Positions 26 through 15,092 of a stretch of DNA of 45,020 nt are shown here, piece after piece; the first letter of the stretch is position 1, and the number at the start of each line of letters is the position of its first letter. A program made the translations under genes and the position numbers. The notes beneath the pieces were generated by a model, which made no database searches, was not told the DNA's origin, and worked only from the letters and a program-made list of their open reading frames with translations. Source of the DNA: an uncultured Lachnospiraceae bacterium (GTDB taxonomy: Bacteria; Bacillota; Clostridia; Lachnospirales; Lachnospiraceae); assembly GCA_947626985.1 (NCBI GenBank), contig CANQUG010000029.1:1-45020 (forward strand), given 5' to 3'.

Positions 26-60
26 TGTGATATAAAAGGAGAATAAAAAATATATATAAT

Positions 61-81
61 CGTAGAGTAAGATACTCTACG
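61..81. promoter_or_regulatory. Perfect 9-bp inverted repeat upstream of the locus
   Basis: CGTAGAGTA and TACTCTACG flank a 3-nt spacer. It directly follows a TATAAT at 55-60 and lies just upstream of the promoter at 97-125. The short spacer and lack of a T-tract fit a dimeric repressor or activator operator better than a terminator. The protein that binds it is unknown. Confidence 0.45.
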
Positions 82-96
82 AAATATCAGATGGAT

Positions 97-175: not shown

Positions 176-880
176 ATGGAGATGATCAGGGAGCTGGCCG
201 TAAGGGTTGATTTCTGGATTTATGTTATCATGGCTGTCGTTTTTGTGTCAGGAATTTTTCTCTGCCTCCTCCCGGTCGGAAGGATCCGGAGAGCTCTTAT
301 GAAAGCGGAAAAGAATCTGAAGCTGCGCAGGCCGGATGGGAGTCATGCATATGCATCGCTGAATTTTCTGAATTGCAGGGCGCTTGACGGACACTGGGAA
401 CGATTTCTGAATAATATGGAGCTGATGCGGAAGAACAACGCAGTGTGTGAAATAGAAGATTTTATCAATTCCCGGACCGCCATTCACGAACCGGGACATT
501 CCTCCTACGGAGAAATGATACCTGGTCTTTTGACGACTCTGGGAATTGTGGGGTCTTTTTATGGAATCGTAAAGGGGCTTTCCACGCTGGATTTAAGCAC
601 GACAGAATCCATGAGCCTGTCCATTGCGGTTCTGATTTCCGGAATGAGGACGGCATTCCATACCTCGATTGCGGGCGCGGTCCTTGCTTTGAGCTTCCAG
701 ATCATGCGGCGCATGGTTATCGGAAGCGCGGAGCGGACTCTGAAAATTTTTATCGGGAGCTGCCAGACGGAAATGGCGTCTCTTCTCACCCCTGATGCCA
801 CCCTGATGCAGACGCTGCATGCGATTCTCATGGAACTGCGCAAAATCAGCGGGAGACAGAAGGAAACGCATGAACAATGA
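176..880 (+). CDS. MotA/TolQ/ExbB-family proton channel subunit
   Basis: This 234-residue membrane protein has three predicted helices: about 13-33, 114-135 and 147-178. Helix 2 has the family hallmark P-x-LLTTLGIVGSFYGIVKGL, and helix 3 carries the polar-lined SGMRTAFHTSIAG stretch that lines the ion path in MotA, ExbB and TolQ. In known systems five such subunits surround two MotB/ExbD-type subunits and convert ion flow into movement. The next gene encodes the matching partner, so the pair probably forms a stator-like motor. The soluble loop (35-110) and the tail are short compared with MotA. GGAGG sits 5 nt before ATG 176. It is closest in style to the ZorA/ExbB group rather than to flagellar MotA; no flagellar or Zorya effector gene is nearby. 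Confidence 0.8.
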   Translation: MEMIRELAVRVDFWIYVIMAVVFVSGIFLCLLPVGRIRRALMKAEKNLKLRRPDGSHAYASLNFLNCRALDGHWERFLNNMELMRKNNAVCEIEDFINSRTAIHEPGHSSYGEMIPGLLTTLGIVGSFYGIVKGLSTLDLSTTESMSLSIAVLISGMRTAFHTSIAGAVLALSFQIMRRMVIGSAERTLKIFIGSCQTEMASLLTPDATLMQTLHAILMELRKISGRQKETHEQ

Positions 881-963
881 GATCATTTTCTGTTCAGCAG
901 AAAGGCCGGATGATAAATGAACAGTCATGACCATGAGTGAGCGGAGTGGCGGAGGATTCCGAT

Positions 964-2025
964 ATGAAAAAAAGACATGACGGGTACTATGAGGACAGGG
1001 AAACCTTTACTCCATGGGAAACCTATTCCGATTTGTACTGCGGATTGCTTCTGGTATTTGTGCTTCTGTTTTTCTTTGCCGTTTATCAGTATATTGACGC
1101 AAGGGAACGAAATAATGCGGAGACGGCGGAGCTGCAGAACAGTATGAGGGAAGAGCAGGCCTCCGTTCTGGCTCTGTATAAGGCGGATCTGGAAGATCAG
1201 GAAGCGGCTTACAGGGAGAAGAGCAGAGAACTGGACAGCCAGAAAACGGCTCTCGCCATTATGCAGTCTGATCTGGAAGAGAGAACCGCATTGCTGGATG
1301 AGCAGCAGAAGCTGATCGATGCCCAGGAGCAGCAGATGAACGGGCAGCAGGAACAGTTGATAAACCAGCAGGAGAAGCTGGACAGTCAGCAGAAAACGCT
1401 GAATGAACAGAAGCTTCTGATAAAAAACCAGCAGAAGGAACTGGAAGCCCAGCAGGCGCTGCTGGACAGCCAGGCGGATCAGATCGAGCAGATTGTGGGG
1501 ATCCATGGTCAGCTGATCGATGAACTGAACGGCGAGCTGGCAGCCAATCAGATACAGATACAGGCGGACAGACGGACGGGAGCCATCGCTTTTTCAAGCG
1601 CCGTTCTTTTTGCGAAGGACAGAGATGAGCTGAGCGAAGAAGGAAAAGCTTTTTTCAGGAGCTTCATGCCTGTATATATGGAAGTTCTTCTTCAGGAGAA
1701 ATTCCGGGATCACATCGCTGAGATCATTATTGAAGGGCATACGGATGACAGCGGTTCCTATCTGCATAATCTTGAATTGTCGCAGCAGCGTGCCGGGAGC
1801 GTGGCGGAATATATTCTCAGCGACGACTGTGATTTTCTTGATGCTGATACGGTTGCGGCGCTGAAATCCCTGGTTACGGTAAACGGATGCGCGGACAAAG
1901 ATCTGATTTATCAGAGTGATGGAAAAGTGGATGCGGATCGATCCAGACGGGTGGAAATCAAATTCCGTCTGAAGGATCAGGAGATGATCCGGGAAATGGA
2001 CGAAATATTAAATAAGGAAGATTGA
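964..2025 (+). CDS. MotB/ZorB-like protein with coiled coil and OmpA peptidoglycan-binding domain
   Basis: I place the start at ATG 964, eight bases after GGAGG (951-955); a GTG at 937 is possible but has no such site. The 353-residue product has a short cytosolic N-terminus and then one helix (about 19-43). Asp23, in the YSDL motif at the start of that helix, matches the proton-carrying Asp of MotB (Asp32 in E. coli). A Gln/Glu-rich coiled coil follows (about 50-180). The C-terminal OmpA/MotB fold has GHTDD at 258-262 and NLELSQQRA at about 270-278, the residues that grip peptidoglycan. It would anchor the channel encoded just upstream to the wall. The coiled coil is much longer than in ZorB and could span the Gram-positive periplasm-like zone. 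Confidence 0.83.
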   Translation: MKKRHDGYYEDRETFTPWETYSDLYCGLLLVFVLLFFFAVYQYIDARERNNAETAELQNSMREEQASVLALYKADLEDQEAAYREKSRELDSQKTALAIMQSDLEERTALLDEQQKLIDAQEQQMNGQQEQLINQQEKLDSQQKTLNEQKLLIKNQQKELEAQQALLDSQADQIEQIVGIHGQLIDELNGELAANQIQIQADRRTGAIAFSSAVLFAKDRDELSEEGKAFFRSFMPVYMEVLLQEKFRDHIAEIIIEGHTDDSGSYLHNLELSQQRAGSVAEYILSDDCDFLDADTVAALKSLVTVNGCADKDLIYQSDGKVDADRSRRVEIKFRLKDQEMIREMDEILNKED

Positions 2026-2042: not shown

Positions 2043-3689
2043 ATGAAAAAGCGGCATATTAAGACAGGAGCGGCGGCGGTTTTAGTTGGAATACTGTTTA
2101 TGTATTCTCTTGTGTTTGCCAGTGTGGACAAGCTGAATATCAGTCAGATTGTACAGAAGGGCAATGATGTGTATCTGTATGTGAGCGCTCTGGACAGCTC
2201 CGGAAAGCCTTCGGGAGATGTGCTCTCCGCGCAGCAGCTTTCTGTGAGCGTGGATAAAGGACAGTCGCTTCCCGTACTGGACGCGTCTGTTTTTCAGTCT
2301 CTGGGACAGGGCGTTTCCTATATTTTCTGCGTCGATGTTTCCAAGTCGGTGACGGAACAGGAGATGCAGGAAATCCGCAGCAGTCTTTCGGAATTTGTCA
2401 GCGGCATGTCCGATGGCGATTATGCGCAGATTATTACGATCGGAACGGAAATAAAATCCGTCTGCGATTCCACCACGGACCGGAACGCCCTGAACAGCGC
2501 GATTCAGGGGATTACCAGGAGCGCGGATTATACATATCTCTATAAAGGTCTTTCCTTTGCTCTGGACAGACAGAGAAAAAATGTGGATACCATGCCGGAG
2601 AGAGCGGCTGTGGTTCTGTTCACGGACGGCATGGACGATTCCGACGGGGCGTCCAGTGAGGAACAGGTACTGGTGGATATTGCGGAGACCAGAATACCCG
2701 TTTATGTGGTGGGATTAAAAGGAAATGATTCCGCAGCGAGTCTGAATTCCATGGGCCAGATCGCCAGACAGTCCGGCGGAAGCGTATTTTCCTACAGCGA
2801 CATGTCCATCACAGCCGCTGTACAGAATATAAGAAATATCATGAACAGTACCTATTATGTGCATGTGCAGCCTGAGGAAGCAAGCTTTGGCGTGCAGAAT
2901 CTGGTGTGGAGCATAATGTACAATTCAGAGGGATATTCTGTCACAAGTTCCAACTATGTGTATTCACTGGGCTTGGATCAGGTGACGTTTGAAGAACCGG
3001 CTGTTACGGAAACTCCGGCTCCCACGCCTTCTCCGGAGCCCACTCCCACGCCGGAGCCTACCCCCACGCCGGAACCGGAAAAAACCGCGATGGACAAAGC
3101 GGCGGAGTTTATAAAAGACAACTGGATTCTGTGCATCGCCGGGGTTTTGATTCTTGCCGCGGTGATCGCGGTTCTGGCGGTTGTCCTGCGGAAGAAAAAG
3201 AAGGGCGTGGAAGAACTTGAGGCTGGAGGAAGTATTTCTCCTGTTGACAGAACATTTTCTTTTGAAAGAGATGACACCTTTGAGGACAGTGAGCGCGTAG
3301 GGGACGACATAACCCTGGGAGAGGATTTCGACGACGAGAATACTATCGATGCGGCGGTGGAGAGCGGAATCCGGATCGGATTTGAAATCACCTTCGATGG
3401 ACGGACGGAGACAGTGGAACAGACTCTGCGCGACGAACTGATACTCGGACGGGGAGAAGAATGCGATGTGGACGTTGTGCTTCATTCCAATACGGAAGAA
3501 CGAAAACTGACGTCCAGAAAGCACGCGGTGATTCTGGACCGTCCAGATGGTCTGTACGTGAAGGACAATTCAAGAAACAAAACGTATCTGAACGGCGTGG
3601 AGGTCACAGGGGAAGTCGCTCTGAGGGATGAGGATGTGCTGAAGCTGGGAAAAGCGCTTGTGAAAGTAAAAATCCTCAATATGAAATAA
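2043..3689 (+). CDS. Secreted-side VWA domain / cytosolic FHA domain membrane protein
   Basis: ATG 2043 is preferred over TTG 2022, because AGGAG (2029-2033) is correctly spaced and a clean signal peptide follows. The 548-residue product has a signal sequence (1-27) and a von Willebrand A domain (about 80-280) with the MIDAS motif DVSKS from Asp98 and FTDGMDD further on. A Thr/Pro/Glu-rich hinge follows, then one membrane helix (about 361-382) and a C-terminal FHA domain (about 450-548) with GRGEECD, SRKHA (from Ser491) and LNG. The layout puts metal-dependent adhesion or scaffold binding outside and phosphothreonine binding inside. It probably links the kinase signal to the envelope part of the secretion machine. 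The exact partner is not visible. Confidence 0.82.
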   Translation: MKKRHIKTGAAAVLVGILFMYSLVFASVDKLNISQIVQKGNDVYLYVSALDSSGKPSGDVLSAQQLSVSVDKGQSLPVLDASVFQSLGQGVSYIFCVDVSKSVTEQEMQEIRSSLSEFVSGMSDGDYAQIITIGTEIKSVCDSTTDRNALNSAIQGITRSADYTYLYKGLSFALDRQRKNVDTMPERAAVVLFTDGMDDSDGASSEEQVLVDIAETRIPVYVVGLKGNDSAASLNSMGQIARQSGGSVFSYSDMSITAAVQNIRNIMNSTYYVHVQPEEASFGVQNLVWSIMYNSEGYSVTSSNYVYSLGLDQVTFEEPAVTETPAPTPSPEPTPTPEPTPTPEPEKTAMDKAAEFIKDNWILCIAGVLILAAVIAVLAVVLRKKKKGVEELEAGGSISPVDRTFSFERDDTFEDSERVGDDITLGEDFDDENTIDAAVESGIRIGFEITFDGRTETVEQTLRDELILGRGEECDVDVVLHSNTEERKLTSRKHAVILDRPDGLYVKDNSRNKTYLNGVEVTGEVALRDEDVLKLGKALVKVKILNMK

Positions 3690-3716
3690 GTATTGTCGGT
3701 ATCGGGAATTGAGTGT

Positions 3717-4919
3717 ATGTGGAATGTATGGGGACTGTCGGGGGAGATTTTAAAGAAGTGCGGAGAAAAGCTGCCGGAAATGATCGTTTTTTCCGTGATT
3801 CTGCTGCTGATCCTTTTATACGTTTTTTTGCGGATAAAACGGAAGCGGAAAAACAGAAAAAAAGAGATTTTCGAACAAACAGGCTATGTGCGCCCGACGC
3901 CTTCCGGGGACGAGGAGGACGGACATACCGTAATGGCTGCGGAGGCCGCTGATGAAACTGCGGAAAGCTCTGCGGAGAAGGAACGGAAGCTGTCGGAAGT
4001 GCCGCCGGAGGAAGGGCCGCAGGGGCAGGAGGGAACGTCATCCCGGAAGGACCCGGAGCAGGAGCCTGCGGTTATTCCGAAACCTGACAGTCAGAATACC
4101 CCGGTTTCCCGGGAAGCTCAGAGCCGGCAGGAACATCCCGCCGTTTACGGAATCGTGGTAAACAGTAAAGGACTGGTACGGGCCAATAATGAAGATAACT
4201 TTTATCTGAACGGAAAATATATGCGTCTCCGGAAGATGGACAACGATATCATTGCCTCGGGAAGCTCCAGGAAAGGAGTACAGCTTTATGCGGTGTGCGA
4301 CGGAATGGGAGGAACGGCGGCCGGGGAAGAAGCCTCCTTCCGGGCGGTAAGAGAACTTGCCGCCAGAAAGAAGATGTATGGGAGGATCTCGGACTCCGGG
4401 GACCTGAGTTCTCTTTTGCAGAAGATTTCTGACAGAATTTATGAAGAATCTGTGGAAAAAAAGAGAAAGTCGGGGACCACTGTCGCAATGCTCCTGGTGA
4501 AAAACGATAAGGCAATGCTGGCCAATGTGGGGGACAGCCGTATTTATCTCCTGCGGGACCGGAAACTGACTCAGATGTCGCTGGATCACACAAAAGTACA
4601 GAAAATGCTGTCCATGGGACTGATCACGCCGGAAGACGCGAAGACCAGTTCCGTTCGTCATGTAATCACACAGTACCTGGGAATGCCGGCGGCGATCAGA
4701 GTTTATCCTTATATTGTACCGGACCATGAACTGCGGAAAGGGGATGTTTATGTCCTGTGCAGCGACGGTCTGACGGACATGGTGGAAGACCGCGGGATGG
4801 AAGAAATCCTGAATAAGAATCAGAAACCGGAGGAAACGGTGAAGGAGCTTCTGAAAACCGCCCTGGAAAAGGGAGGACGGGATAATGTGACAATCATGCT
4901 TCTGTATATAACCGGATAA
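3717..4919 (+). CDS. Membrane-anchored PP2C-family Ser/Thr phosphatase
   Basis: Starting at ATG 3717 (a TTG at 3693 is less likely) gives 400 residues: one membrane helix (about 22-40), a low-complexity Glu/Pro linker and a complete PP2C domain (about 145-400). All metal-site motifs are present: RANNED (Asp160), VCDGMGG (Asp195), SGTT, ANVGDSR, CSDGLTD and GRDN. The family removes phosphate from Ser/Thr using two metal ions. It is the only phosphatase in the locus and should oppose the kinase encoded at 22365-25346, resetting the FHA-domain proteins. The order VWA-FHA, PP2C, FHA, FHA, EssC implies one operon. It resembles PrpC/PppA/PstP; the last two act in secretion or wall signalling elsewhere. 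Confidence 0.88.
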   Translation: MWNVWGLSGEILKKCGEKLPEMIVFSVILLLILLYVFLRIKRKRKNRKKEIFEQTGYVRPTPSGDEEDGHTVMAAEAADETAESSAEKERKLSEVPPEEGPQGQEGTSSRKDPEQEPAVIPKPDSQNTPVSREAQSRQEHPAVYGIVVNSKGLVRANNEDNFYLNGKYMRLRKMDNDIIASGSSRKGVQLYAVCDGMGGTAAGEEASFRAVRELAARKKMYGRISDSGDLSSLLQKISDRIYEESVEKKRKSGTTVAMLLVKNDKAMLANVGDSRIYLLRDRKLTQMSLDHTKVQKMLSMGLITPEDAKTSSVRHVITQYLGMPAAIRVYPYIVPDHELRKGDVYVLCSDGLTDMVEDRGMEEILNKNQKPEETVKELLKTALEKGGRDNVTIMLLYITG

Positions 4920-4997: not shown

Positions 4998-5345
4998 ATG
5001 AATATGCACAGGGTCGAGGATACTGTTTCTCTGTGGAACAGCAGCGGAAAAAAGAAGATTACGCTGAAGAATCTGCTGACAGGGATGAAATTTTCGTTTG
5101 AACTGAAACAGAGCTTCACCATTGGGAGAAAAAAGGAAGAGTGCGATATGCAGATCACAGATGACGACCGGTACATATCCGGAAAGCATCTGCGCTTTAT
5201 CAAAGGCGAGGACGGAGTTTATGTGGAGGATCTGGAAACAAAAAACGGAACCGCGGTAAACGGAAAAAGAATACGGGCGAAAACCAGAGTGCGCAGCGGC
5301 GATATTATTCGGATAGGGAGATCGAAATTTGAGATTATGTTTTAG
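4998..5345 (+). CDS. Small stand-alone FHA-domain protein
   Basis: The 115-residue soluble protein is little more than one FHA domain. TIGRKKEECDMQI, SGKHLRF and TKNGTAVNG match the Gly-Arg, Ser-x-x-His and Asn-Gly signature residues that bind phosphothreonine. AGGAGG at 4988-4993 supports the ATG at 4998. It has no enzymatic domain and is probably an adaptor that bridges phosphorylated parts of the secretion system, like GarA- or Fha-type adaptors. It sits 78 bp after the phosphatase and 14 bp before a second FHA gene. Confidence 0.85.
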   Translation: MNMHRVEDTVSLWNSSGKKKITLKNLLTGMKFSFELKQSFTIGRKKEECDMQITDDDRYISGKHLRFIKGEDGVYVEDLETKNGTAVNGKRIRAKTRVRSGDIIRIGRSKFEIMF

Positions 5346-5359
5346 CGGAAGGAGCGGAC

Positions 5360-5947
5360 ATGAGTGATGGAGTAGCACAGCTGTTATTATCCCAGAAGGC
5401 CATTACTTTTTATGAAGTGCTGATCATTCTGATCCTGGCTGCGCTGCTGATCCGGCAGATGAAAAAGAAAAGGCAGCTGGAGGAACGCAGGCAGATCACC
5501 AATATAAAAACACGGAACGCGGAACTGGAAAAAATATTGAAAAATCCGGATAATACCGTGCAGCAGGTTAAGCCGCCCAATCCTTTTGATGTTCAGTACA
5601 GGCATAATGCAAATAATCCGATACCCAGATTCCAGATAGGGATAGAGGTCCATACGGAAATCAGTGTGGAGCGGTATCTGTTTGATTTAAAACAGGAACT
5701 GACTATCGGCAGGGACAAAAAAAATAAACTGCCTCTCGGCAATGATAAGCTGATTGCCAAAAAGAGCTGTTCGATTTTTCTTAAAGATCAGAACGTTTAT
5801 GTCAGAGATTCCGGATCGAGGAATTCGGTTTATCTCCAGAGAGGCAAGAAGAATTATCGTATACAGAACCAGACTGTGAAGCTGCAGAATAAAGATATAT
5901 TGATTTTAGGGAAAACTTCCCTTCATATTTCGCTTTTTGAAAATTAG
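5360..5947 (+). CDS. Membrane-anchored protein with degenerate FHA domain
   Basis: This 195-residue protein has one N-terminal helix (about 18-34), a basic/coiled stretch and a C-terminal FHA-like fold (about 105-195). The first signature (TIGRDKKN) is kept, but the Ser-x-x-His loop is replaced by AKKSCSI and the Asn-Gly turn by SRNSVYL. Phosphothreonine binding may be weak or lost, so a structural role at the membrane beside EssC is possible. GGAAGGAG lies just before ATG 5360. No homologue with known function is recognised. Confidence 0.72.
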   Translation: MSDGVAQLLLSQKAITFYEVLIILILAALLIRQMKKKRQLEERRQITNIKTRNAELEKILKNPDNTVQQVKPPNPFDVQYRHNANNPIPRFQIGIEVHTEISVERYLFDLKQELTIGRDKKNKLPLGNDKLIAKKSCSIFLKDQNVYVRDSGSRNSVYLQRGKKNYRIQNQTVKLQNKDILILGKTSLHISLFEN

Positions 5948-6019: not shown

Positions 6020-9000
6020 ATGGGTCTTATTATTTCTGTTTATACAAAGGAAGCGTTTAAAGAATATGTAATGCCGGCGATCAATAACGCGGATTACTCC
6101 ATTGTACTTAATAAAAATTATTTCAGTCTTCGTGAAGACGTCCGTCTGAATTTTGAAATTATCAACGACGTCTGGAAAATTAAAGCGGGGATGAATTACC
6201 GCATCACTCTGAATAAGAGCGAGATAGAAGACAAAATTGCGCTGGACGGTTCCCAGATTTTTCAGATTCTTACCTATGACAGAAAGCAGATCATGCTGAT
6301 GGTAAGAATGAGCGAGAATATTTTTTCGCCCTATACCAAGTATGATATCCGGAAGATGGGACGTATAACCATCGGCCAGGATGAAGGCAATCTGATCCAG
6401 TATGATTTCCAGCGCCTGATATCGAAAACTCACGCGGAAATTCTGCGGAAAGGGAAGGATTTTGTTATTTCCAGCAGAGGACAGAACGGACTGTATGTAA
6501 ATTCCAGATATATTGTAAAAGAAGAAACTCTTCATTTTGGGGATTACATCAATATTTATGGTCTCCATATGGTCTTTCTGGGAGAAATACTGGCTGTTGA
6601 TACTGCCGGCTCAAATATCCGTGTCAATGAAAAATATCTGACCCGATTTCCGGAGGAGGAGATCGGAGGGCGGAAGGTAAAGCAGGAAGCGGGAGCCGAA
6701 CTTGAACCTGTAAAGAAAACCTTTCATCGTTCTCCCAGAATAATAGAAAAAATAGAGCAGGGGGTTATTGAGATCGAAGAACCTCCCAAGGAGATGAAAT
6801 CTCAGAAAAAACCGCTTCTGATGACCATCGGTCCTTCTTTTACCATGGCGATTCCCATGCTTCTGGGGGCTCTGCTGATGATCGCGTCGTCCCGGGCGGC
6901 AGGAGGGTCCAGCGGTCTGTTCATGTATTCGGGACTTGTGATGTCGGTTTCCTCGGCGTCCATCGGGGTTATCTGGGCGCTGGTCAATCTGCGGTTTCAG
7001 AAAAAAACGGAGGCGGAGAACGAAACTCACCGCTATGACGCCTACAGCGATTATCTTGTAAAGAAAACAGAGGAGATCAGGGAAAAATATACGCATAATC
7101 AGACGGCGCTGAATCGGATGTATCCCAGTGCGAATACCTGTCTGGGCTACAATGAGAATTCCGCCATGCTCTGGAGCAGGAATTCCACGCATTCGGATTT
7201 TCTCAGCTGCAGGCTGGGAGAGGGTGATACGGACTTTCAGGTGACCATTCAGATCCCTAAGGAACGGTTCCGGCTGGATCGGGATGAGCTTGCGGAAAAA
7301 CCGGAATTTATTGTGGAAAATTATAAAACCATTACCAAAATTCCTATTCTGCTGGATCTTCTGGAGCACAGGCTGGTAGGCGTGGTAGGCGGAAACGGAA
7401 AGGCAGGGGCGCTTCAGATCGCGAAGGTTCTGGCTGCTCAGCTGGCGGCGTGCAACTGCTATACGGATGTGAAGCTGATCTTTGTTTATGATGAAAGCAA
7501 TTCGGAGGATTCCGGGCAGTGGGATTTTGCCAGGTGGCTTCCTCATGTGTGGGCGGAGGATAAAAAGGTGCGGTATATTGCTTCCAATAAACTGGAGGCC
7601 GGTGAGATTTTCTATGAAATCACCAGGGTATTGCGCCAGAGAGAAGAAAACAGTGCCGCTATTTCCTCTAAAAAGGCAGAGATTCCCAAGCCGTACTTTG
7701 TGATGTTCCTGTCGGATCCCTCCCTGATCGAGGAGGAGCTGATCGCCAAATACGTATTCGGAGCCTCTGCGGAAGTCGGACTTACGACGATTATGCTGGC
7801 CAGCAGCAGTGAGAGACTGCCCAATGCCTGTGAATACATCGTGGAGAACGATGCTCTTTTTCAGGGCGTCTACAACGTTTCCGCCCAGAAGGAGGAGCGC
7901 ACGAAGGTAAATTTCGATCAGGCAGATTCCGGAAAGCTGGAGAAGTTCAGCCGGACGTTATCCAATATTCAGGTACAGGAGATCGAAACCGGAGGTGAGA
8001 TTCCCAATTCGCTTACCTTCTTCGATATGTACGGTATTTCCAGACCTTCTGACCTGAAGGCGGAGGAGCGCTGGCTGAAGAACAGAAATTATGACAACAT
8101 CAGGGGCCTGATCGGACAGAAGTCCGGAGGAGCTCCCTGCTATATGGACGTTCATGAGAAATACCACGGCCCCCATGGGCTGGTGGCAGGTACCACAGGC
8201 TCCGGAAAAAGTGAAACCCTCCAGACCTATATGCTGTCCCTGGCCATCAACTACAGCCCGGATGATATCGGATTTTTTATCATCGACTATAAGGGCGGCG
8301 GCATGGCGAACCTCTTTGACGGTCTGCCTCACATGATCGGCCAGATTTCCAACCTGTCCGGGAATCAGGTATACCGGGCTATGGTTTCCATCAAGAGTGA
8401 AAACCGCAGAAGACAGCGGATTTTTACGGAGAACGGCGTAAACAATATCAATAATTATACAAAGCTGTATAAAAATAAGGAAGCAACCGTTCCCATTCCC
8501 CATCTGTTTATTATCATTGATGAGTTTGCGGAGCTGAAGCGCGAGGAACCGGATTTCATGAAGGAGCTCATCAGCGTGGCCCAGGTAGGGCGAAGCCTTG
8601 GGGTTCATCTGATTCTCGCCACTCAGAAGCCTGCGGGAACTGTGGACGACAATATCTGGAGCAACTCGAAGTTCCGTCTGTGCCTGCGGGTGCAGGACAG
8701 GCAGGACAGCAACGATATGCTTCACAAGCCGGACGCTGCCTATATCACGCAGGCCGGGCGTTGTTATCTGCAGGTAGGAAACGACGAGGTATACGAGCTG
8801 TTCCAGTCCGGCTGGAGCGGAGCGCCCTACGATGAGAATATGGAGAGCGGAAAGTCCGAGCTTGCCCGGCTTCTGACCATCAATGGAAAGGCGGAGATGA
8901 CCGGAGGACACGCGCGGGCACTCAGAAAACAGCAGGTGCTTCACCGCTGGATTTCTCAGCTGATCGCGAGCTTCGAGGAGACAGGTCTTCAGGAGGAAGC

Positions 9001-11044
9001 TTCCCTGCAGAATCTTTTCGCGCATAAAAGAGCGATGCAGGAGGCGGCGGAGCTTTTCTATGACAGGATAGCCGCGAACGGCCTGGATTATCAGAAGAGC
9101 AAATATAACCTGGCCCGTCTGGAGGATTTTATCGGTCTGTACGGAAAGGCAAAACAGCAGGAGGCAGACACTGCAGATGTGATTATCAGACTTGCCGCGG
9201 GAATGAATGTGAAGCTTCCGGAGGTGAGAGAGCGCACCCAGCTGGATGCCGTTAAGGACTATCTTCAGAAGACAGCGGCGGAAAACGGATATCAGCAGAA
9301 TCATCAGCTGTGGATGCCGGTGCTTCCGGATCATATTTATCTGGAACAGTTTGCGGAATATCAGAGCGAAGCCTTTGACGGGAAAGGATGGAAGGAACGG
9401 GGAGAAGCCTGGTCTCTGGACATTCCCATCGGTATGGTGGACGACCCGCAGAATCAGGCTCAGATCCCTCTGCAGTTCAGCTTTTCCGAGGGAGGCAATT
9501 ACGCCATTATCGGTTCGGTAGTCAGCGGAAAGAGTACAATGCTTCAGACCATACTGTACGGCCTGACTACGAAATATACGCCGGATTATCTGAATATTTA
9601 CGCATTGGATTTCAGCAGCAAAATGATGTCCGCCTTTGAGGGGCTGGCTCATTTCGGCGGAATCATGTATGAGGGCGACGATGAAAAGATCGCCAAATTC
9701 TTCAATATGATCCAGCGAATACTCGATGAGAGAAAGAAGGTTTTCCGGGGCGGAAACTACAGCCAGTACGTGCAGGTGCATGGAGTGACCTTCCCGGCCA
9801 TCGTGATCGTGATCGATAACTTTTCCGCATTTAAGGAGAAAACCGCCGATCTGTATGAAAAGCAGATTATTCAGCTTTCCCGGGAAGGCGTGGGACATGG
9901 AATTTTCCTCCTTTTCAGTGCCGGCGGGTTCGGAATGAATGAGATTCCGGGGAGAATCGCGGAGAACCTGAAGACGATACTCTGTCTGGAGCTTGCGGAC
10001 AAATATGCGTACAGCGATGTGCTGCATACGACTCAGATCCAGGTTCTTCCCGAGGCCGGCGTCAAGGGCAGAGGACTTGCGCTGTATGCTTCCCGCATTC
10101 TGGAATATCAGACGGCCCTTGCCCTGGAGGCGGAGGATGATTACCAGAGAATGGAAAAGATCTCCGGGGTCTGCAGGAGGATGAACGAGGCCTGGACCGG
10201 CAGAAGAGCCCGTCCCATTCCGGAAATTCCCGAAAAGCCTGCCTGGGAGCTCTTTACAGAGCTGGAGCAGGTGAGAAAAGACGCTTCCGAGGACTGCCTG
10301 CTTCCGGTGGGCTACAATGCGGAGACTGCCGATGTGTACAGCGTGGATCTCAGCTCCATTTACTGTTATCTGATCGCCGGCGCGGCCAGAACCGGAAAGA
10401 AGAATTTCCTGAAGGTGATGCTGGCTTCCGCCCAGCTGAAAAACAGTCAGATCTGTCTGATCGACGGAGACGGGCTGATGGGGCAGTATGCTTCCCAGGA
10501 TGGAATCAGTTATGTTTCCAATGAGGAGGAGCTGTTCGGATATTTCCAGAATACGCTTACGCCGGAGTTTAAGAAGCGGAATAAGATCAAACAGCAGATT
10601 CTTGCGGCGGGCGGCGAGGAGGAGGATCTCTACGCGCAGACGAGGAAGGAGACGCCCGTTTTCCTGTTTATCACGAATATGCTGTGGTTTATCAATACCA
10701 TCTACGCTCCCCAGAATGCGTCCAGAGGCATGAAAGGGTTTATGGAAACGCTGACCATGAAGGGGCGCTACCACAATATTTATTTTGTAGGAATATTAAA
10801 TCTGGAAGATAAAAATACCGTGAGGGGATATCAGACCTTTATCAATTTTGTGTCTTACAAGACCGGCATCCATTTCGGAGGAAATATTTCTCAGAATGGT
10901 TTTATGAACTTTGATTATCTTCCCTTTAAGGAAATGACAAAATCTGAAAAACCGGGCGTTGGTCAGCTGCCCATGGTGGATGGAAAAGTGGGGACTCAGA
11001 AGATTGTGGTTCCTCTGATGGGAAGAAAGAAGAGCAGGCTATGA
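6020..11044 (+). CDS. essC: EssC-type T7SS motor ATPase (FHA-FtsK/SpoIIIE)
   Basis: This 1674-residue protein is the core engine of type VII secretion. A degenerate FHA-like region (1-95) is followed by a clearer FHA domain (about 105-190; ITIGQDEG, SKTHAEI, NGLYVNS) and two membrane helices (about 265-288 and 297-322). Four FtsK-like modules follow. The first is degenerate (GGNGKAGA, 457-464). The second is intact, with Walker A GTTGSGKS at 724-731 and Walker B IIIDE at about 831-835. The third has GSVVSGKST (1165-1173) and VIVIDN. The last is atypical (GAARTGKKN, 1454-1462) with no normal Ser/Thr after the Lys. This matches EssC/EccC, where the second module hydrolyses ATP and the last recruits WXG100 signals. 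The 3' end overlaps the next gene by 4 bp, so translation is probably coupled. Confidence 0.95.
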   Translation: MGLIISVYTKEAFKEYVMPAINNADYSIVLNKNYFSLREDVRLNFEIINDVWKIKAGMNYRITLNKSEIEDKIALDGSQIFQILTYDRKQIMLMVRMSENIFSPYTKYDIRKMGRITIGQDEGNLIQYDFQRLISKTHAEILRKGKDFVISSRGQNGLYVNSRYIVKEETLHFGDYINIYGLHMVFLGEILAVDTAGSNIRVNEKYLTRFPEEEIGGRKVKQEAGAELEPVKKTFHRSPRIIEKIEQGVIEIEEPPKEMKSQKKPLLMTIGPSFTMAIPMLLGALLMIASSRAAGGSSGLFMYSGLVMSVSSASIGVIWALVNLRFQKKTEAENETHRYDAYSDYLVKKTEEIREKYTHNQTALNRMYPSANTCLGYNENSAMLWSRNSTHSDFLSCRLGEGDTDFQVTIQIPKERFRLDRDELAEKPEFIVENYKTITKIPILLDLLEHRLVGVVGGNGKAGALQIAKVLAAQLAACNCYTDVKLIFVYDESNSEDSGQWDFARWLPHVWAEDKKVRYIASNKLEAGEIFYEITRVLRQREENSAAISSKKAEIPKPYFVMFLSDPSLIEEELIAKYVFGASAEVGLTTIMLASSSERLPNACEYIVENDALFQGVYNVSAQKEERTKVNFDQADSGKLEKFSRTLSNIQVQEIETGGEIPNSLTFFDMYGISRPSDLKAEERWLKNRNYDNIRGLIGQKSGGAPCYMDVHEKYHGPHGLVAGTTGSGKSETLQTYMLSLAINYSPDDIGFFIIDYKGGGMANLFDGLPHMIGQISNLSGNQVYRAMVSIKSENRRRQRIFTENGVNNINNYTKLYKNKEATVPIPHLFIIIDEFAELKREEPDFMKELISVAQVGRSLGVHLILATQKPAGTVDDNIWSNSKFRLCLRVQDRQDSNDMLHKPDAAYITQAGRCYLQVGNDEVYELFQSGWSGAPYDENMESGKSELARLLTINGKAEMTGGHARALRKQQVLHRWISQLIASFEETGLQEEASLQNLFAHKRAMQEAAELFYDRIAANGLDYQKSKYNLARLEDFIGLYGKAKQQEADTADVIIRLAAGMNVKLPEVRERTQLDAVKDYLQKTAAENGYQQNHQLWMPVLPDHIYLEQFAEYQSEAFDGKGWKERGEAWSLDIPIGMVDDPQNQAQIPLQFSFSEGGNYAIIGSVVSGKSTMLQTILYGLTTKYTPDYLNIYALDFSSKMMSAFEGLAHFGGIMYEGDDEKIAKFFNMIQRILDERKKVFRGGNYSQYVQVHGVTFPAIVIVIDNFSAFKEKTADLYEKQIIQLSREGVGHGIFLLFSAGGFGMNEIPGRIAENLKTILCLELADKYAYSDVLHTTQIQVLPEAGVKGRGLALYASRILEYQTALALEAEDDYQRMEKISGVCRRMNEAWTGRRARPIPEIPEKPAWELFTELEQVRKDASEDCLLPVGYNAETADVYSVDLSSIYCYLIAGAARTGKKNFLKVMLASAQLKNSQICLIDGDGLMGQYASQDGISYVSNEEELFGYFQNTLTPEFKKRNKIKQQILAAGGEEEDLYAQTRKETPVFLFITNMLWFINTIYAPQNASRGMKGFMETLTMKGRYHNIYFVGILNLEDKNTVRGYQTFINFVSYKTGIHFGGNISQNGFMNFDYLPFKEMTKSEKPGVGQLPMVDGKVGTQKIVVPLMGRKKSRL

Positions 11045-11754
11045 TTTTCGGAGTAATGGTAATTTCAGAGACGGAGGAAAAGAAGCGGATCCGTCAGTGC
11101 TTCAGTGATCTGACGGCCTATTATACGGATGAAAAAATGGAGATCAGGGAGGTCCGCGCCGGCGCACAGCTGCTGGCGATGCTGAAGGAAACGGATCTCC
11201 TGGATATGGCTGTGATCGACGTTACCCTGCCGGGCGCTCTGGAGGGGGCCCGGGAGGTGCGCAGACGGTTTGTGAATACAGAGATCCTTGTGATAGCGGA
11301 TGTATCCATTTCACCCATGGAATATATGCATCCATCCATCCGCGCATCCGCGCTTCTTCTCCGGCCGCCGGCGCGCATCTGGGAAAATGCGCTCCGGGAT
11401 TTCTTTACGCCGCTGCTGGTGAAAAATGAAAAAGAGAATGAAGGGGATATTCTGTGGGTGGAAAACCGGGACGGAGTTTTCCGGATTCCCTTCGGGCAGA
11501 TCTGTTATCTGGAAGCCAGGGAAAAGAAGGTTTTTGTGCGGACCAGAACAGAGGAATTCGGAGTGAATGGAACCATAGAGAAATTTTCAGGAGAGCTTCC
11601 GAAAAATTTTATCAGGTGCCACAGAAGTTTTATTGTAAATATGGATTATGTGTACAAAATAAAACTCACCGAAAATATGCTGTATCTCAGGGATGATATG
11701 TTTGTCCCGGTGTCCAGAAGCTATAAAGCGGAGCTGAAAGAGGCGTTTAAATGA
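11041..11754 (+). CDS. LytTR-family response regulator
   Basis: This 237-residue protein has an N-terminal receiver-like domain (1-125) and a C-terminal LytTR DNA-binding domain (about 143-237; VFRIPFGQICYLEA, FIRCHRSFIVNMDYV, PVSRSY). Asp60 in MAVIDV is in the phospho-acceptor position, but the acidic pair near the N-terminus is reduced and the usual switch Lys is Arg (LLLRPP). No histidine kinase is encoded in the window. LytTR domains bind pairs of 9-bp direct repeats 21 bp apart, and exactly such pairs are found at 12793-12822 and 37342-37371. It overlaps both EssC and the next gene by ATGA-type junctions, tying its expression to the motor. Confidence 0.88.
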   Translation: MIFGVMVISETEEKKRIRQCFSDLTAYYTDEKMEIREVRAGAQLLAMLKETDLLDMAVIDVTLPGALEGAREVRRRFVNTEILVIADVSISPMEYMHPSIRASALLLRPPARIWENALRDFFTPLLVKNEKENEGDILWVENRDGVFRIPFGQICYLEAREKKVFVRTRTEEFGVNGTIEKFSGELPKNFIRCHRSFIVNMDYVYKIKLTENMLYLRDDMFVPVSRSYKAELKEAFK

Positions 11755-12476
11755 GTGAACTGGTTTATAAAAGCTATCTGTTTTCCACAAAGGAGTTTAT
11801 GATTCTGTGCGCGCTGACCGGCATAGAAGAGATAGATATGTTTGGAGAAAGCACGCGCTGTGAAATGGATGAGGAAGAAGTAAATCAGAACGTTTTTCAG
11901 CTTTATCAGAAGGGGATTCTGTATTGCGGAGAGGAAGATTTCTGGAAAGTAAAACCGGAAATCCGGAGTCTGTTCCGTGATATGAGGGATGCGGAAAAGG
12001 AAATGCAGATTTTTTCCAGAAAGAGAGGAGGTCCCCTCCTGTGTTTCGGGGAAGAGCCTCTGATCATCGTGGAAGTGAGTCAGAATGACAGGGATGCGGT
12101 CAAAATGCACCGTCAGACGTCGGATAGCTTTTTTATGGAACTTTGTGACAGAGGAATTCTTCCGGAGAGGGATTCCCTGGAGATGGAAGAGGCCGCTGAG
12201 GATGAAGAGAGCGGAGCCTGGGGGCAGCTTCTGGAAAGTCTGTCAGATCTGATCAGAAACGGGCAGCCTGTGTATGAGAAACTGGAAAAAATTCTGCGGG
12301 AGAGGGAGGAACTGCTCCTTTCTGCTGTGGTCGGCAGCAGGAAATTAAAATCGGACTGGAGAGCGATTTCGGTTGTGGATCTGGGAATTGCCGACTGGCT
12401 TGTATATGCGGGGAATGACAGCGTCAGAACAGATTACTATACCATGGACAGGCTGAGAGCCTTTCTCAGATCATAG
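11751..12476 (+). CDS. Unknown protein of the T7SS operon, possibly EspG-like chaperone
   Basis: I do not recognise this 241-residue protein with certainty. It is soluble and acidic, with no signal peptide or membrane helix. The N-terminal half reads like a mixed alpha/beta fold that starts with a short strand-helix (FSTKEFMILCAL) and continues with a helical segment ending LYQKGILYCGEEDFWKVKPEIRSLF. This resembles the order seen in EspG, the ESX chaperone for PE/PPE substrates (helix, 'L...Glv', then a helix of the 'vdp-l...l' kind). That likeness is by eye only. It overlaps the LytTR gene by 4 bp and precedes the YukD gene, so a secretion role is very likely. A cytosolic substrate chaperone or an EssB-like soluble piece are alternatives. 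Confidence 0.55.
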   Translation: MSELVYKSYLFSTKEFMILCALTGIEEIDMFGESTRCEMDEEEVNQNVFQLYQKGILYCGEEDFWKVKPEIRSLFRDMRDAEKEMQIFSRKRGGPLLCFGEEPLIIVEVSQNDRDAVKMHRQTSDSFFMELCDRGILPERDSLEMEEAAEDEESGAWGQLLESLSDLIRNGQPVYEKLEKILREREELLLSAVVGSRKLKSDWRAISVVDLGIADWLVYAGNDSVRTDYYTMDRLRAFLRS

Positions 12477-12483
12477 AAAAAGT

Positions 12484-12505
12484 CCTGCCATGCGGCAGCG
12501 GCAGG
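12484..12505 (+). other. Small hairpin before the yukD-like gene
   Basis: CCTGCC (12484-12489) can pair with GGCAGG (12500-12505) around a 10-nt loop. It has no T-tract. It may tune translation or processing between the two flanking genes, or be chance. Confidence 0.25.
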
Positions 12506-12543
12506 GTATGCAGAAGAATTTTTTGGAAGAGAGGGCATGGAAA

Positions 12544-12792
12544 ATGATTTTAGTGGATATATATGTCCCGTCCCTGGATAAAACCTATGATTTTCAGGTA
12601 GATGAAAAGGTATCGGTGGAAAGTCTGATCGTGGAAATTGCTGAGATGATCGGAAACGAAACAAAGTCCGGAAGAAAGTCGGATCCGGAAAAATTTTATC
12701 TGTGTTCTCCGGACCGGGAGATGATTTTTCCGGCAAAATCTTCGCTGCAGGCCTGCGGGATGAAGAATGGTTCCAGGCTGATGCTGGTATAA
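12544..12792 (+). CDS. yukD: YukD/EsaB ubiquitin-like T7SS protein
   Basis: Starting at ATG 12544 (GAGAGG just upstream) gives 82 residues, the usual YukD/EsaB length; an upstream in-frame ATG at 12490 would add a non-homologous tail. The sequence opens with a beta-strand (ILVDIYVPSLDKTYDF), then a helix (SVESLIVEIAEMIG) and closes with strands ending GMKNGSRLMLV, a ubiquitin-like beta-grasp fold. In Bacillus and Staphylococcus this small protein is needed for or regulates type VII secretion; it is not conjugated to targets. Here it is the last gene before the LytTR-controlled promoter of the WXG100 block. Confidence 0.82.
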   Translation: MILVDIYVPSLDKTYDFQVDEKVSVESLIVEIAEMIGNETKSGRKSDPEKFYLCSPDREMIFPAKSSLQACGMKNGSRLMLV

Positions 12793-13301: not shown

Positions 13302-13607
13302 ATGGCGGTAAATAAGATCAGGGTCAATACCAGCAGCCTGAGTCAGACCCGGAGAGAGCTTCAGGCAAAGCTGGACAAGATCAGAAAGGATATTGCGAAC
13401 ATTTCCAACGATATGAATACATTGAATTCCATGTGGGACGGAGATGCGCATGAAGCCTTTTCCCGGCAGGTAGATTCAGATATCAGTTTTCTCAGGGATG
13501 CCTGTAACGGTATTCAGAGTATCATAAACTATGAAAGCACCGCGGTGACGGAATATGATAAATGTGAGCAGCAGATTGCCGATGTGATTTCACAGATCAG
13601 AATTTAG
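13302..13607 (+). CDS. WXG100 protein, trio A member 1
   Basis: This 101-residue helical hairpin has a canonical turn with WDG (MWDGDAHEAF) halfway along. WXG100 proteins form dimers and are recognised by EssC for export; many act as partners for larger toxins. It pairs with the product of 30250-30552: both share the pattern W-x-G-x-A-x-EAF-x2-QV-x2-DI and end in an Ile-rich tail after a YxxxE-like motif (YDKCE). It is the first of three adjacent genes that are repeated in the same order at 30250-31239. Confidence 0.88.
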   Translation: MAVNKIRVNTSSLSQTRRELQAKLDKIRKDIANISNDMNTLNSMWDGDAHEAFSRQVDSDISFLRDACNGIQSIINYESTAVTEYDKCEQQIADVISQIRI

Positions 13608-13625
13608 GAAAGGGGAAGGAACGTC

Positions 13626-13943
13626 ATGGGAATTGTATTAAAGGTGACGCCGGAGGTTCTGAAAAGGATGGCGGGCGAGATCGAAAAAGAGATCGGCGAT
13701 ATATCCAGTCAGTTCAGCCTGATCGACGCGGACATCAGCCGTACCCGTTCCTATTGGGAGGGAGAAGCCAGCGACGCCCATAAATCTCAGTATGACGGGC
13801 TGAAGGATGAGATCCATGAGGCTGTCAGCCGGCTGAAAAGCAACCCGGTGAATCTGCTTCAGATGGCCGGCCTGTATTCAGAAACGGAATCCGATCTGCA
13901 GGCTGTGGTGCAGCAGACTCTTTCGGAAGATGTTATCGTATAA
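13626..13943 (+). CDS. WXG100 protein, trio A member 2, DVIV tail
   Basis: The 105-residue protein has the WEG turn (YWEGEASDAHKSQY), a YxxxE export motif (YSETE) and the exact C-terminus SEDVIV. The DVIV ending and the distance to YxxxE are shared with the products of 14772-15092 and 30568-30894, which suggests a common recognition tail for EssC or for a partner. It lies 18 bp after trio member 1 and 15 bp before member 3. Confidence 0.88.
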   Translation: MGIVLKVTPEVLKRMAGEIEKEIGDISSQFSLIDADISRTRSYWEGEASDAHKSQYDGLKDEIHEAVSRLKSNPVNLLQMAGLYSETESDLQAVVQQTLSEDVIV

Positions 13944-13958
13944 GGAGGGGAGCGACAG

Positions 13959-14273
13959 ATGGCGAAAAGTGCTTTTGAGATCAGAATGGATTATGACAGG
14001 GCCGTGCGCCAGGCGAACTCTCTGGATGAGATTGCGAGAGATCTGAAAAAAACTGCGGAGAGAGAGCTTCAGGACTGTATGTCCCAGATTTCCTGTAACT
14101 GGACGGGGACCAATTCCACAGCTTATATCCGGAAGTGCGATATGTTAAAGTCCAATATCGTAAGAACGGCCGGAAACCTCAGCAGAACAGCCGATACCAT
14201 CCGCAGGATCGCGAAAAACACCTACGATGCGGAGATGAAAGCCCTGGAGATTGCCAGACTCAGAAAGTATTAA
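13959..14273 (+). CDS. WXG100-family protein, trio A member 3
   Basis: This 104-residue helical hairpin has WTG at the turn (NWTGTNSTAYI). AAGGAGG precedes ATG 13959. It matches the product of 30940-31239 in overall plan: N-terminal Leu/Glu heptads (SLDEIARDLKKTAE against RLEELADELKRIAE), the WTG turn, a RT/RTVAxxxY stretch, and a tail with no YxxxE...DVIV signal. That difference from member 2 hints that members 2 and 3 form a heterodimer with the export signal on only one of them. Confidence 0.83.
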   Translation: MAKSAFEIRMDYDRAVRQANSLDEIARDLKKTAERELQDCMSQISCNWTGTNSTAYIRKCDMLKSNIVRTAGNLSRTADTIRRIAKNTYDAEMKALEIARLRKY

Positions 14274-14280
14274 GATATAT

Positions 14281-14304
14281 GATATCCCGATGAAAGGGGA
14301 TATT
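14281..14304 (+). terminator. Weak hairpin between WXG100 genes
   Basis: ATATCCC (14282-14288) pairs with GGGATAT (14297-14303) around an 8-nt loop, followed by an AT-rich run. It may be a partial terminator or a processing site that lets the downstream EsxA-like gene be expressed at a different level from the trio before it. Confidence 0.4.
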
Positions 14305-14353
14305 TATATAAAAAACAAACAAAATAAATATGAAAAAACAGGAGGAAATATTC

Positions 14354-14653
14354 ATGAGCGAAATTATTGTAACATCCAGTATGCTGAGAAGCAAAGCAGA
14401 GGAACTGAATAATATGAACGAGCAGTTCAGAAATGCGGTGAGTTCTCTGAGAGATGTAGAGAACGTACTTCGTTCCCAGTTTGAAGGCGAGGCCAGCGAC
14501 GCATTCCACAAAGCCTTCTCGAATGATACCATTCAGATGCAGAACTTTTATAACGCTATTGCGCAGTACGTGCAGAAGCTGATTCAGATCGCGGACACTT
14601 ATGAGAAGGCTGAGCAGGCGAACGTAGCTACGGCAAATGCAAGAAATTATTAA
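14354..14653 (+). CDS. WXG100 protein, EsxA-like, with FEG turn
   Basis: AGGAGG directly precedes ATG 14354, giving 99 residues; the upstream ATG at 14330 would place this ribosome site inside the gene. The N-terminus (SEIIVTSSMLRSKAEEL) and the turn region (FEGEASDAFHKAF) are typical of the abundant EsxA-like proteins of clostridia, with Phe in place of the Trp of WXG. A YxxxE motif (YEKAE) lies near the end. It is probably a general export partner or secreted structural WXG100 protein rather than a toxin. Confidence 0.9.
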   Translation: MSEIIVTSSMLRSKAEELNNMNEQFRNAVSSLRDVENVLRSQFEGEASDAFHKAFSNDTIQMQNFYNAIAQYVQKLIQIADTYEKAEQANVATANARNY

Positions 14654-14771
14654 TCAGACTTTATAAAGAGGAAGAAAATCCTGCGGGAAACGGCAGAATT
14701 TCAGTACCGGTTTATCCGGACGGCAGATCATTACATAAAATTGAAAATAAAAAGAAAGTGAGGAATTTATT

Positions 14772-15092
14772 ATGGCATCAGGAATCTTAAGAGTATCACC
14801 GGAGAAATTACAGTCAACAGCATCCAGTTTTGAGGGATCCGCATCCAGCGTGCAGAATCTGACCCAGCAGATGACTTCCATCGTAACGAGCCTTTCCGGC
14901 CGGGTGTGGAGCGGCGACGCAGCTACCGCTTATGTGAACAAATTCAACGGTCTTCAGGATGATATGAATCGTATCTATAAGATGATCAAGGAGCATTCCG
15001 ACGACCTTATTCAGATGGCTCAGCAGTACTCCTCTGCAGAATCGTCCAATGCCAACCTGGCCAACAGTCTGTCATCGGATGTGATTGTCTGA
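14772..15092 (+). CDS. WXG100 protein with DVIV tail
   Basis: The 106-residue helical hairpin has WSG at the turn (VWSGDAATAYVNKF), a YxxxE motif (YSSAE) and the C-terminus SSDVIV, 21 residues from the Tyr, the same tail as in the products of 13626-13943 and 30568-30894. It is the last gene of the WXG100 block; a strong hairpin follows at 15143. A 118-bp gap separates it from the EsxA-like gene, but no clear promoter is visible in that gap. Confidence 0.9.
   Translation: MASGILRVSPEKLQSTASSFEGSASSVQNLTQQMTSIVTSLSGRVWSGDAATAYVNKFNGLQDDMNRIYKMIKEHSDDLIQMAQQYSSAESSNANLANSLSSDVIV

Follow-up and report, generated by a model that had tools for sequence, protein, structure and literature searches.

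A compact stator-type gene pair in an EssC-class type VII secretion locus of Lachnospiraceae

Introduction

The closest described relatives of the gene pair reported here are ZorA and ZorB of the Zorya systems (types I and II), which, in the available text of their description, form an ion channel and motor that works through the Asp of the family and whose B subunit holds the cell wall (PMC11890865). The present pair has in common with them its nearest structures and profiles for both subunits, the Asp, and a B subunit of the OmpA-type, wall-binding kind. However, ZorA possesses a long tail, whereas the A subunit described here ends soon after its last transmembrane (TM) region; Zorya-type B subunits have rods of 16–23 residues (four plasmid-borne examples), compared with 136 here; and Zorya has effector genes nearby, whereas the present pair, with no visible effectors beside it, sits among genes of a type VII secretion system (T7SS).

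A Mot/Exb/Tol-type proton channel with a wall-binding B subunit is also found as an auxiliary encoded in a secretion locus in the case of SiiA and SiiB (PMC12607715), although the secretion system that they serve is of type I, works with an ABC transporter and belongs to a Gram-negative bacterium, and the likeness drawn here is one of function and superfamily. According to the available sections of the same account, loss of SiiA/SiiB leaves secretion of SiiE into the supernatant unaffected and harms adhesion-related functions (PMC12607715). The flagellar stators MotAB and PomAB share the superfamily, the Asp and the OmpA-type domain with the present pair, but flagellar MotB has the MotB_plug domain, for which the MotB described here scores 12 bits against a cut-off of 24, and the present A subunit is, in addition, compact.

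On the secretion side, the variants T7SSb and T7SSc to T7SSj share EssC, YukD and WXG100 proteins with the locus analysed here, and several of them include a kinase, a PPM phosphatase and FHA proteins, as set out in the available text of a survey (PMC11217815); the present locus differs in being without EssB/YukC and in having a stator pair, a membrane VWA-FHA protein and a LytTR regulator. The main text of that survey does not use the terms MotA, OmpA or proton (PMC11217815), the available text of a paper on MotAB evolution names ExbBD, TolQR, AglRS and ZorAB and no T7SS-linked stator (PMC12505986), and among the titles listed from a partial library none concerned a stator pair with a T7SS. 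Non-flagellar stators and T7SS variants are already known kinds. How T7SS substrates cross the thick wall, and whether anything besides the EssC ATPase energises or licenses their passage, is an unsettled question in the field, and a natural T7SS operon with a stator, together with a close relative without it, makes that question testable.

Results

The window, by which is meant the whole stretch of DNA analysed (45,020 bases), is the entire contig C29 of a 4.08-Mb source genome in 200 contigs (97.6% complete), and the contig begins 175 bp 5' of MotA, where the visible upstream DNA ends. From this 5' end the gene order is MotA, MotB, VWA-FHA, PP2C, FHA, FHA, EssC and LytTR (Table 1), followed by one unnamed protein, YukD, a second unnamed protein and five WXG100 proteins, and farther downstream by a trypsin-FHA protein, an RHS protein, a membrane Ser/Thr kinase, three additional WXG100 proteins and an FHA-ABC transporter. 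A first-pass annotation had placed only phospho-signalling and T7SS genes between MotB and EssC, and this proved correct for all four genes of the interval (VWA-FHA, PP2C, FHA and FHA); the identity of EssC was confirmed by TIGR03928 (1106 bits, NCBIfam cut-off 778 bits). The gap between the MotB stop codon (2023–2025) and the VWA-FHA start codon (ATG 2043) is 17 nt. The inverted repeat upstream of MotA had one match in the window and none in 100 shuffles, and no repeat of its type was seen by eye in the matching stretch of the related genome G361 (described below).

With its EssC, WXG100 and YukD genes, the window encodes a T7SS of the EssC class. EssB/YukC (PF10140) had no match in the source genome (0/1; the control matched 3/14 genomes, above cut-off in one of them), so the locus is not a T7SSb in the strict sense. 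EsaA and EssA were likewise not among the proteins identified by the scans of the window. The RHS-repeat protein (1625 aa, window 17158–22035) lies inside the T7SS locus, with further WXG100 genes downstream, and is likely a T7SS substrate. In the same locus, the ABC transporter (window 33438–35810) bears two FHA-matched stretches. A GH3 enzyme (window 41163–43946) has its C-terminal domain model (residues 25–279) ahead of its N-terminal one (residues 516–772), a permuted order.

Table 1. Features of the window, with the evidence on which each assignment is based.
Feature	Position	Strand	Evidence and remarks
Inverted repeat 5' of MotA (perfect 10-bp arms, 3-bp spacer)	60..82	.	Possible operator or hairpin
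A subunit of MotA/ExbB/ZorA type, compact (234 aa) and lacking the long cytoplasmic tail of ZorA	176..880	+	Profiles, PDB matches, alignment
Candidate docking helix (MotA residues 204–218)	785..829	+	Alignments; docking role putative
MotB/ZorB-type B subunit (353 aa)	964..2025	+	Profiles, PDB match, alignment
Codon of Asp23 (numbered from ATG 964), the ion-carrying Asp of the family	1030..1032	+	Role by homology
Long helical linker from TM helix to OmpA domain	1108..1503	+	Alignment, AlphaFold2 model
OmpA-type peptidoglycan-binding domain, Pfam-matched part	1606..1827	+	Pfam
Membrane VWA-FHA protein	2043..3689	+	VWA probably outside, then Pro/Thr-rich stretch, TM, and FHA probably inside; predicted topology
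PP2C phosphatase, membrane-anchored	3693..4919	+	Domain scan and hydropathy scan
Small FHA protein	4998..5345	+	Pfam scan
Membrane FHA protein	5360..5947	+	Pfam scan and hydropathy scan
EssC ATPase of the T7SS	6020..11044	+	TIGR03928
LytTR response regulator	11041..11754	+	Pfam scan
YukD/EsaB ubiquitin-like protein	12490..12792	+	Pfam scan
Five WXG100 proteins, one under the Pfam cut-off	13302..15092	+	Pfam scan
Membrane Ser/Thr kinase of the locus	22365..25346	+	Domain scan and hydropathy scan

The stator-type pair with Asp23 and OmpA wall-binding motifs that had been proposed at first reading was borne out, both open reading frames being as then described, by matches in Pfam, PADLOC and the PDB. 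The A subunit scored 23.5 bits with PF01618, just over the cut-off of 22.9, and 61 bits with PADLOC ZorA, and its best PDB matches were to ZorA (8qyh/8qyd, E 6e-9 to 3e-8). The B subunit scored 39.9 bits with PF00691 (OmpA) and 223.7 bits with PADLOC ZorB1 (E 5e-67), and matched ZorB in the PDB (8qyd_F, E 2e-10). Both subunits are by sequence comparison closer to ZorA/ZorB than to flagellar stators. NCBIfam Zorya models nevertheless gave scores far under their cut-offs (ZorA2, 58.5 of 700 bits; ZorB1/ZorB2, 55.7 and 59.6 of 400 bits; also 37.5 of 750 bits). As had also been noted at first reading, no flagellar genes and no Zorya effectors were seen nearby: MotB_plug had no match in the source genome (0/1; the control matched 4/14 genomes), and Pfam scans of 30 window proteins, with three ORFs of annotated size (31985, 40504 and 44017) standing outside them, showed no ZorC/D/E-type domain.

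A second ZorAB-like pair, here termed the core pair, is present in the source genome on contig C66. It belongs to the same superfamily, and its MotB is ~36% identical to that of the window, but its A subunit differs in length (563 aa, with a long tail), in neighbourhood and in clade. The window A subunit has its C-terminus ~60 residues past the last conserved TM region of the alignment, whereas 21 other A subunits, all outside the T7SS-linked pair, run well past this point with tails or further domains, the extension being an EAL domain in L042, L043 and L049. Hydropathy segments were found at residues 14–32 and 114–132 of the window A subunit and at 4–22 and 159–177 of its G361 relative, making three regions jointly, and the same scan found one additional N-terminal hydrophobic segment in the core A subunit of the source genome; T7SS-linked A subunits would then have three TM helices, compared with four in the core A subunit. 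The residues of the candidate docking helix are the same in the window and G361, unlike those of the remaining A subunits aligned.

The B subunit starts at ATG 964, preceded by a GGAGG-like site, with GTG 937 as a possible alternative (362 aa), and has one hydrophobic segment by hydropathy scan. Asp23 was invariant in 22/22 aligned B subunits, as were residues Y266, N269, L272, S273 and R276 of the OmpA domain. The long coiled segment predicted at first reading between the TM region and the OmpA domain was recovered in a single-sequence AlphaFold2 model of MotB, in which residues 18–217 form a single helix and the 10-residue blocks from 31 to 160 have mean pLDDT of at least 90; the OmpA part of the model is unfolded, with mean pLDDT 66 and pTM 0.30.

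Measured from the TM end to the OmpA domain, the rod of the window B subunit is 136 residues long and that of its G361 relative 185. Rods of 23 other Lachnospiraceae stators from a first set had 61–131 residues and core rods from a second set had 93 to 142, so that the window rod is long, yet within reach of the longest core rods. Linker lengths in the first set, 29 B subunits (L237, which is partly masked, was left out), fell into three classes modulo 7, and inside tree-derived clades 12/12 length steps, among related sequences, were multiples of 7. The second set, from 40 fetched core loci (L266–L305), yielded 39 B subunits, and 39/39 of these related sequences had linkers of 2 modulo 7, with seven distinct lengths between 93 and 142; the count (39/39) was the same under two choices of flank columns, and a third gave 38/39. 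One extra linker, from a four-row alignment, had a length of 90 (6 modulo 7), outside the second-set class. When the rod was examined by Fourier analysis, hydrophobicity showed no significant period of 3.5 residues (2000 shuffles, of which a fraction of 0.113 was as high for the window and 0.90 for G361), and the heptad case therefore rests on the length steps. Steps of whole heptads suggest a coiled coil with its register held, although duplication of heptad-coding DNA, without selection, may be a partial alternative explanation: the DNA of the G361 rod is repeated in tandem with periods of 42 and 21 bp, while a search of the window for tandem repeats of such periods found none. Heptad-stepped rods suggest, moreover, a fixed angular register between the membrane and wall ends of such stators.

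A second species keeps the pair in place. In G361, the genome of locus L146, EssC is 73% identical to that of the window, and the order MotA (70%), MotB (64%), VWA-FHA and PP2C is shared, with EssC on a separate contig. The kinase gene of this genome is split across contig ends, the stator contig ending in a stretch that matches L147 kinase residues 14–539 and the EssC contig starting with the remainder, residues 544–846; given one kinase gene divided between the two ends, stator and EssC are very likely neighbours, and the possibility that the G361 pair is an unrelated stator, suggested by the location of EssC on another contig, was rejected on these grounds. The gene ahead of MotA in G361 encodes an Ig-like surface protein of 2454 aa, for which there was no match in the window's source genome.

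A third genome, G362 (locus L147), is of the same genus as G361 and its EssC is 77% identical, but its operon has no stator, the end of the Ig-like surface protein directly preceding VWA-FHA; this T7SS can therefore do without the pair. The three closest EssC proteins (window, L146 and L147) formed an unresolved fork in the tree, within a fully supported group. In one further genome of G361's genus, G411, two pieces of the MotA N-terminus are encoded close to YukD and WXG100 genes (L254:8953-9114 and 12257-12420 (-)). These fragments (54 residues, 72% identity to G361 and 57% to the window), ~1 kb from YukD, are the remains of a stator-bearing T7SS locus; 20 kb of its 31.7 kb were read, and EssC had no match there. 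Known T7SS-linked stator loci thus amount to two intact examples and one remnant.

To place these loci among T7SSs more widely, EssC was located in 16/64 genomes of the genus and in 38/299 of a family sample. The GTDB contig collection yielded 225 stretches with EssC, and the 80 best were retained. In all, 136 EssC loci were read, 122 of them distinct, with ≥6 kb of upstream sequence in 85 and <2 kb in 20. With four A subunits and four B subunits as tblastn queries, no stator part was found in any of the 122 distinct loci. Three tblastn matches in EssC loci, to EAL-type A/SpaA-type B proteins, fell outside the stator parts and were rejected. Because contig ends may hide the pair, the search was extended to the full genomes from which the 80 nearest EssC loci came: MotA matches at E ≤ 1e-6 were present in 8/40 and 7/40 genomes, and among the genomes behind the best 80 of the 225 stretches only G361 had a MotA match of >35% identity. 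An order-wide sample gave matches to MotA at E ≤ 1e-18 in 2/392 genomes, namely the source genome and one with a tailed stator. A scan of a genome contig collection with MotA produced 42 stretches fitting a pattern and no relative, but this is a weak negative, since the scan missed the 70% identical relative in G361, whose EssC contig belongs to that collection. Searches with MotB found nothing in viral contigs and 19 plasmid records, none covering 80% of the query and with best identities of ~30%.

The pair is accordingly no standard part of T7SSs, as had been supposed at first reading, and it does not feature among the variants in the available text of the survey (PMC11217815). That the pair should rarely adjoin EssC in other genomes had been named in advance as telling against a link with secretion; this is what was found for T7SSs at large, while the arrangement in G361 indicates that the association recurs in a second species. 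Rarity beside EssC, together with absence from L147, makes the pair a lineage-specific accessory and not a general T7SS component.

Between the window and G361, dN/dS was 0.14 for MotA, 0.10 for MotB and 0.09 for EssC, with dN of 0.20, 0.27 and 0.18, respectively. These ratios are rough, since dS had reached saturation, with values of 1.5 to 2.7 and, for three operon genes, infinity. Codons aligned for the calculation numbered 293/547 for VWA-FHA and 254/408 for PP2C. Within the limits of such rough ratios, constraint on the pair is similar to that on EssC, and its conservation equals or exceeds that of its operon neighbours. In the trees, the T7SS-linked A proteins are sisters, as are the B proteins (support 100/99 and 100/100), outside the core and EAL classes and on long branches whose depth is unsure; their separate clades indicate that the pair is not a recent copy of the source genome's other stator.

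Discussion

The reading we favour, which we rate slightly below an even chance, is that the pair forms a compact 5:2 ion-driven stator of ZorAB/MotAB type and is a lineage-specific accessory to a T7SS operon that has phospho-signalling genes and no EssB. In its support are the family, the Asp, the wall-binding motif, the operon order, conservation in a second species, the constraint and the long helix; against it, only two intact examples are known, 0/122 EssC loci hold the pair, and L147 is without it. By analogy with SiiAB, the pair would gate or sense rather than serve as the main engine of the T7SS: deletion of siiA/siiB spares SiiE secretion into the supernatant, and the precedent therefore favours control over power.

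Under such a scheme, five A subunits would ring two B subunits, the dimer of which would conduct ions past Asp23, while the B rod (~136 residues, ~20 nm if fully helical) would span the wall zone and the OmpA domain would hold peptidoglycan. Contact with the wall would open the channel, ions would rotate or tilt the A ring, whose short, tail-less cytoplasmic face could relay this state to the locus-encoded FHA/PP2C/kinase/EssC circuit, with the result that secretion or release would be licensed by wall contact and the ion gradient together, as with SiiAB in the type I system of Salmonella SPI-4. We infer the 5:2 assembly, the passage of ions, attachment to the wall in vivo, a link from the stator to FHA or EssC, and gating as the outcome. 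The wider proposition, that a T7SS has its own ion-driven, wall-anchored rotary stator, such that the proton (or sodium) gradient and wall contact (sensed across a rod of ~20 to 28 nm) set or drive its activity through FHA phospho-signalling, is a tentative one and, taken as a whole, somewhat doubtful. If true, it would be to the T7SS what SiiAB is to type I secretion and the rotary motor to type 9. In these bacteria one stator core appears, in any case, to be used in at least three settings: as the tailed core pair, in an EAL fusion of c-di-GMP type and as the compact T7SS-linked form.

It is unlikely, in our estimation, that the pair is a bystander, an envelope stator that is one of several, serves the wall or a surface protein, and shares only transcription with the T7SS. 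The T7SS-linked pairs form a clade of their own in an identical operon position in two genera, and the sole further trace found (G411) is likewise near T7SS genes, although stators of other kinds are plentiful, with MotA matches in 54/60 genomes of the genus (E ≤ 1e-5, EAL class included) and 41/47 of G361's genus, and lie in non-T7SS places wherever their neighbourhoods were read. The operon of L147, which is present without a pair, and the Ig-like surface protein ahead of the pair in G361 also fit a bystander; this surface protein could be the stator's true partner.

It is improbable that the pair is a power-stroke motor in which ion flow turns the A ring and drives EssC, or a rotor-like part, to move substrates across the wall; EssC ATPases are generally considered to power translocation by themselves. 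The pair carries every motif of an ion-driven stator, and type 9 secretion is, in the available text of one account, powered by ion-driven rotary motors (PMC11890865); however, no rotor candidate was found here, the pair is missing from L147 and from the other loci examined, and SiiAB, the nearest precedent, is described as dispensable for release of substrate into the supernatant (PMC12607715).

A role in defence, which the first-pass annotation had entertained for a module sharing the promoter, whether as a reduced Zorya on the T7SS promoter or as a phage sensor firing the T7SS or its toxins, is improbable, for although ZorA and ZorB are the nearest named relatives and the survey, in its available text, cites phage-linked T7SS activation through a Ser/Thr kinase (PMC11217815), the A subunit is without the cytoplasmic tail that Zorya is described as requiring (PMC11890865), the NCBIfam Zorya models fall far short, and effector domains are absent from the scanned window proteins.

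Other stators of these bacteria showed features of their own. In the EAL-class loci (L042:8930-10489 (-) and L042:7236-8945 (-); likewise L041, L043, L044, L048, L049 and L052), the MotA/ExbB domain was fused to an EAL domain in 7/7 scanned A subunits, and in 5/5 scanned B partners SpaA-type repeats replaced OmpA on the wall side; no paper on this MotA-EAL-SpaA combination was found in the literature search. The EAL motifs of these fusions look degenerate by eye, as in a c-di-GMP receptor, and their neighbours, again by eye, resemble the genes for chain-length regulators and for sugar nucleotides that occur in exopolysaccharide clusters. The tailed, ZorA/ZorB-like core pair (L040:88-2799, L045, L046, L047, L050, L051 and L053) has a conserved neighbourhood, near pheT- and ylqF-like genes by eye, and no Zorya effectors were noticed in the core-pair neighbourhoods read. 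The PADLOC ZorB1 model PDLC00609 scores core pairs at ~220 bits, and such pairs may consequently be miscalled as Zorya.
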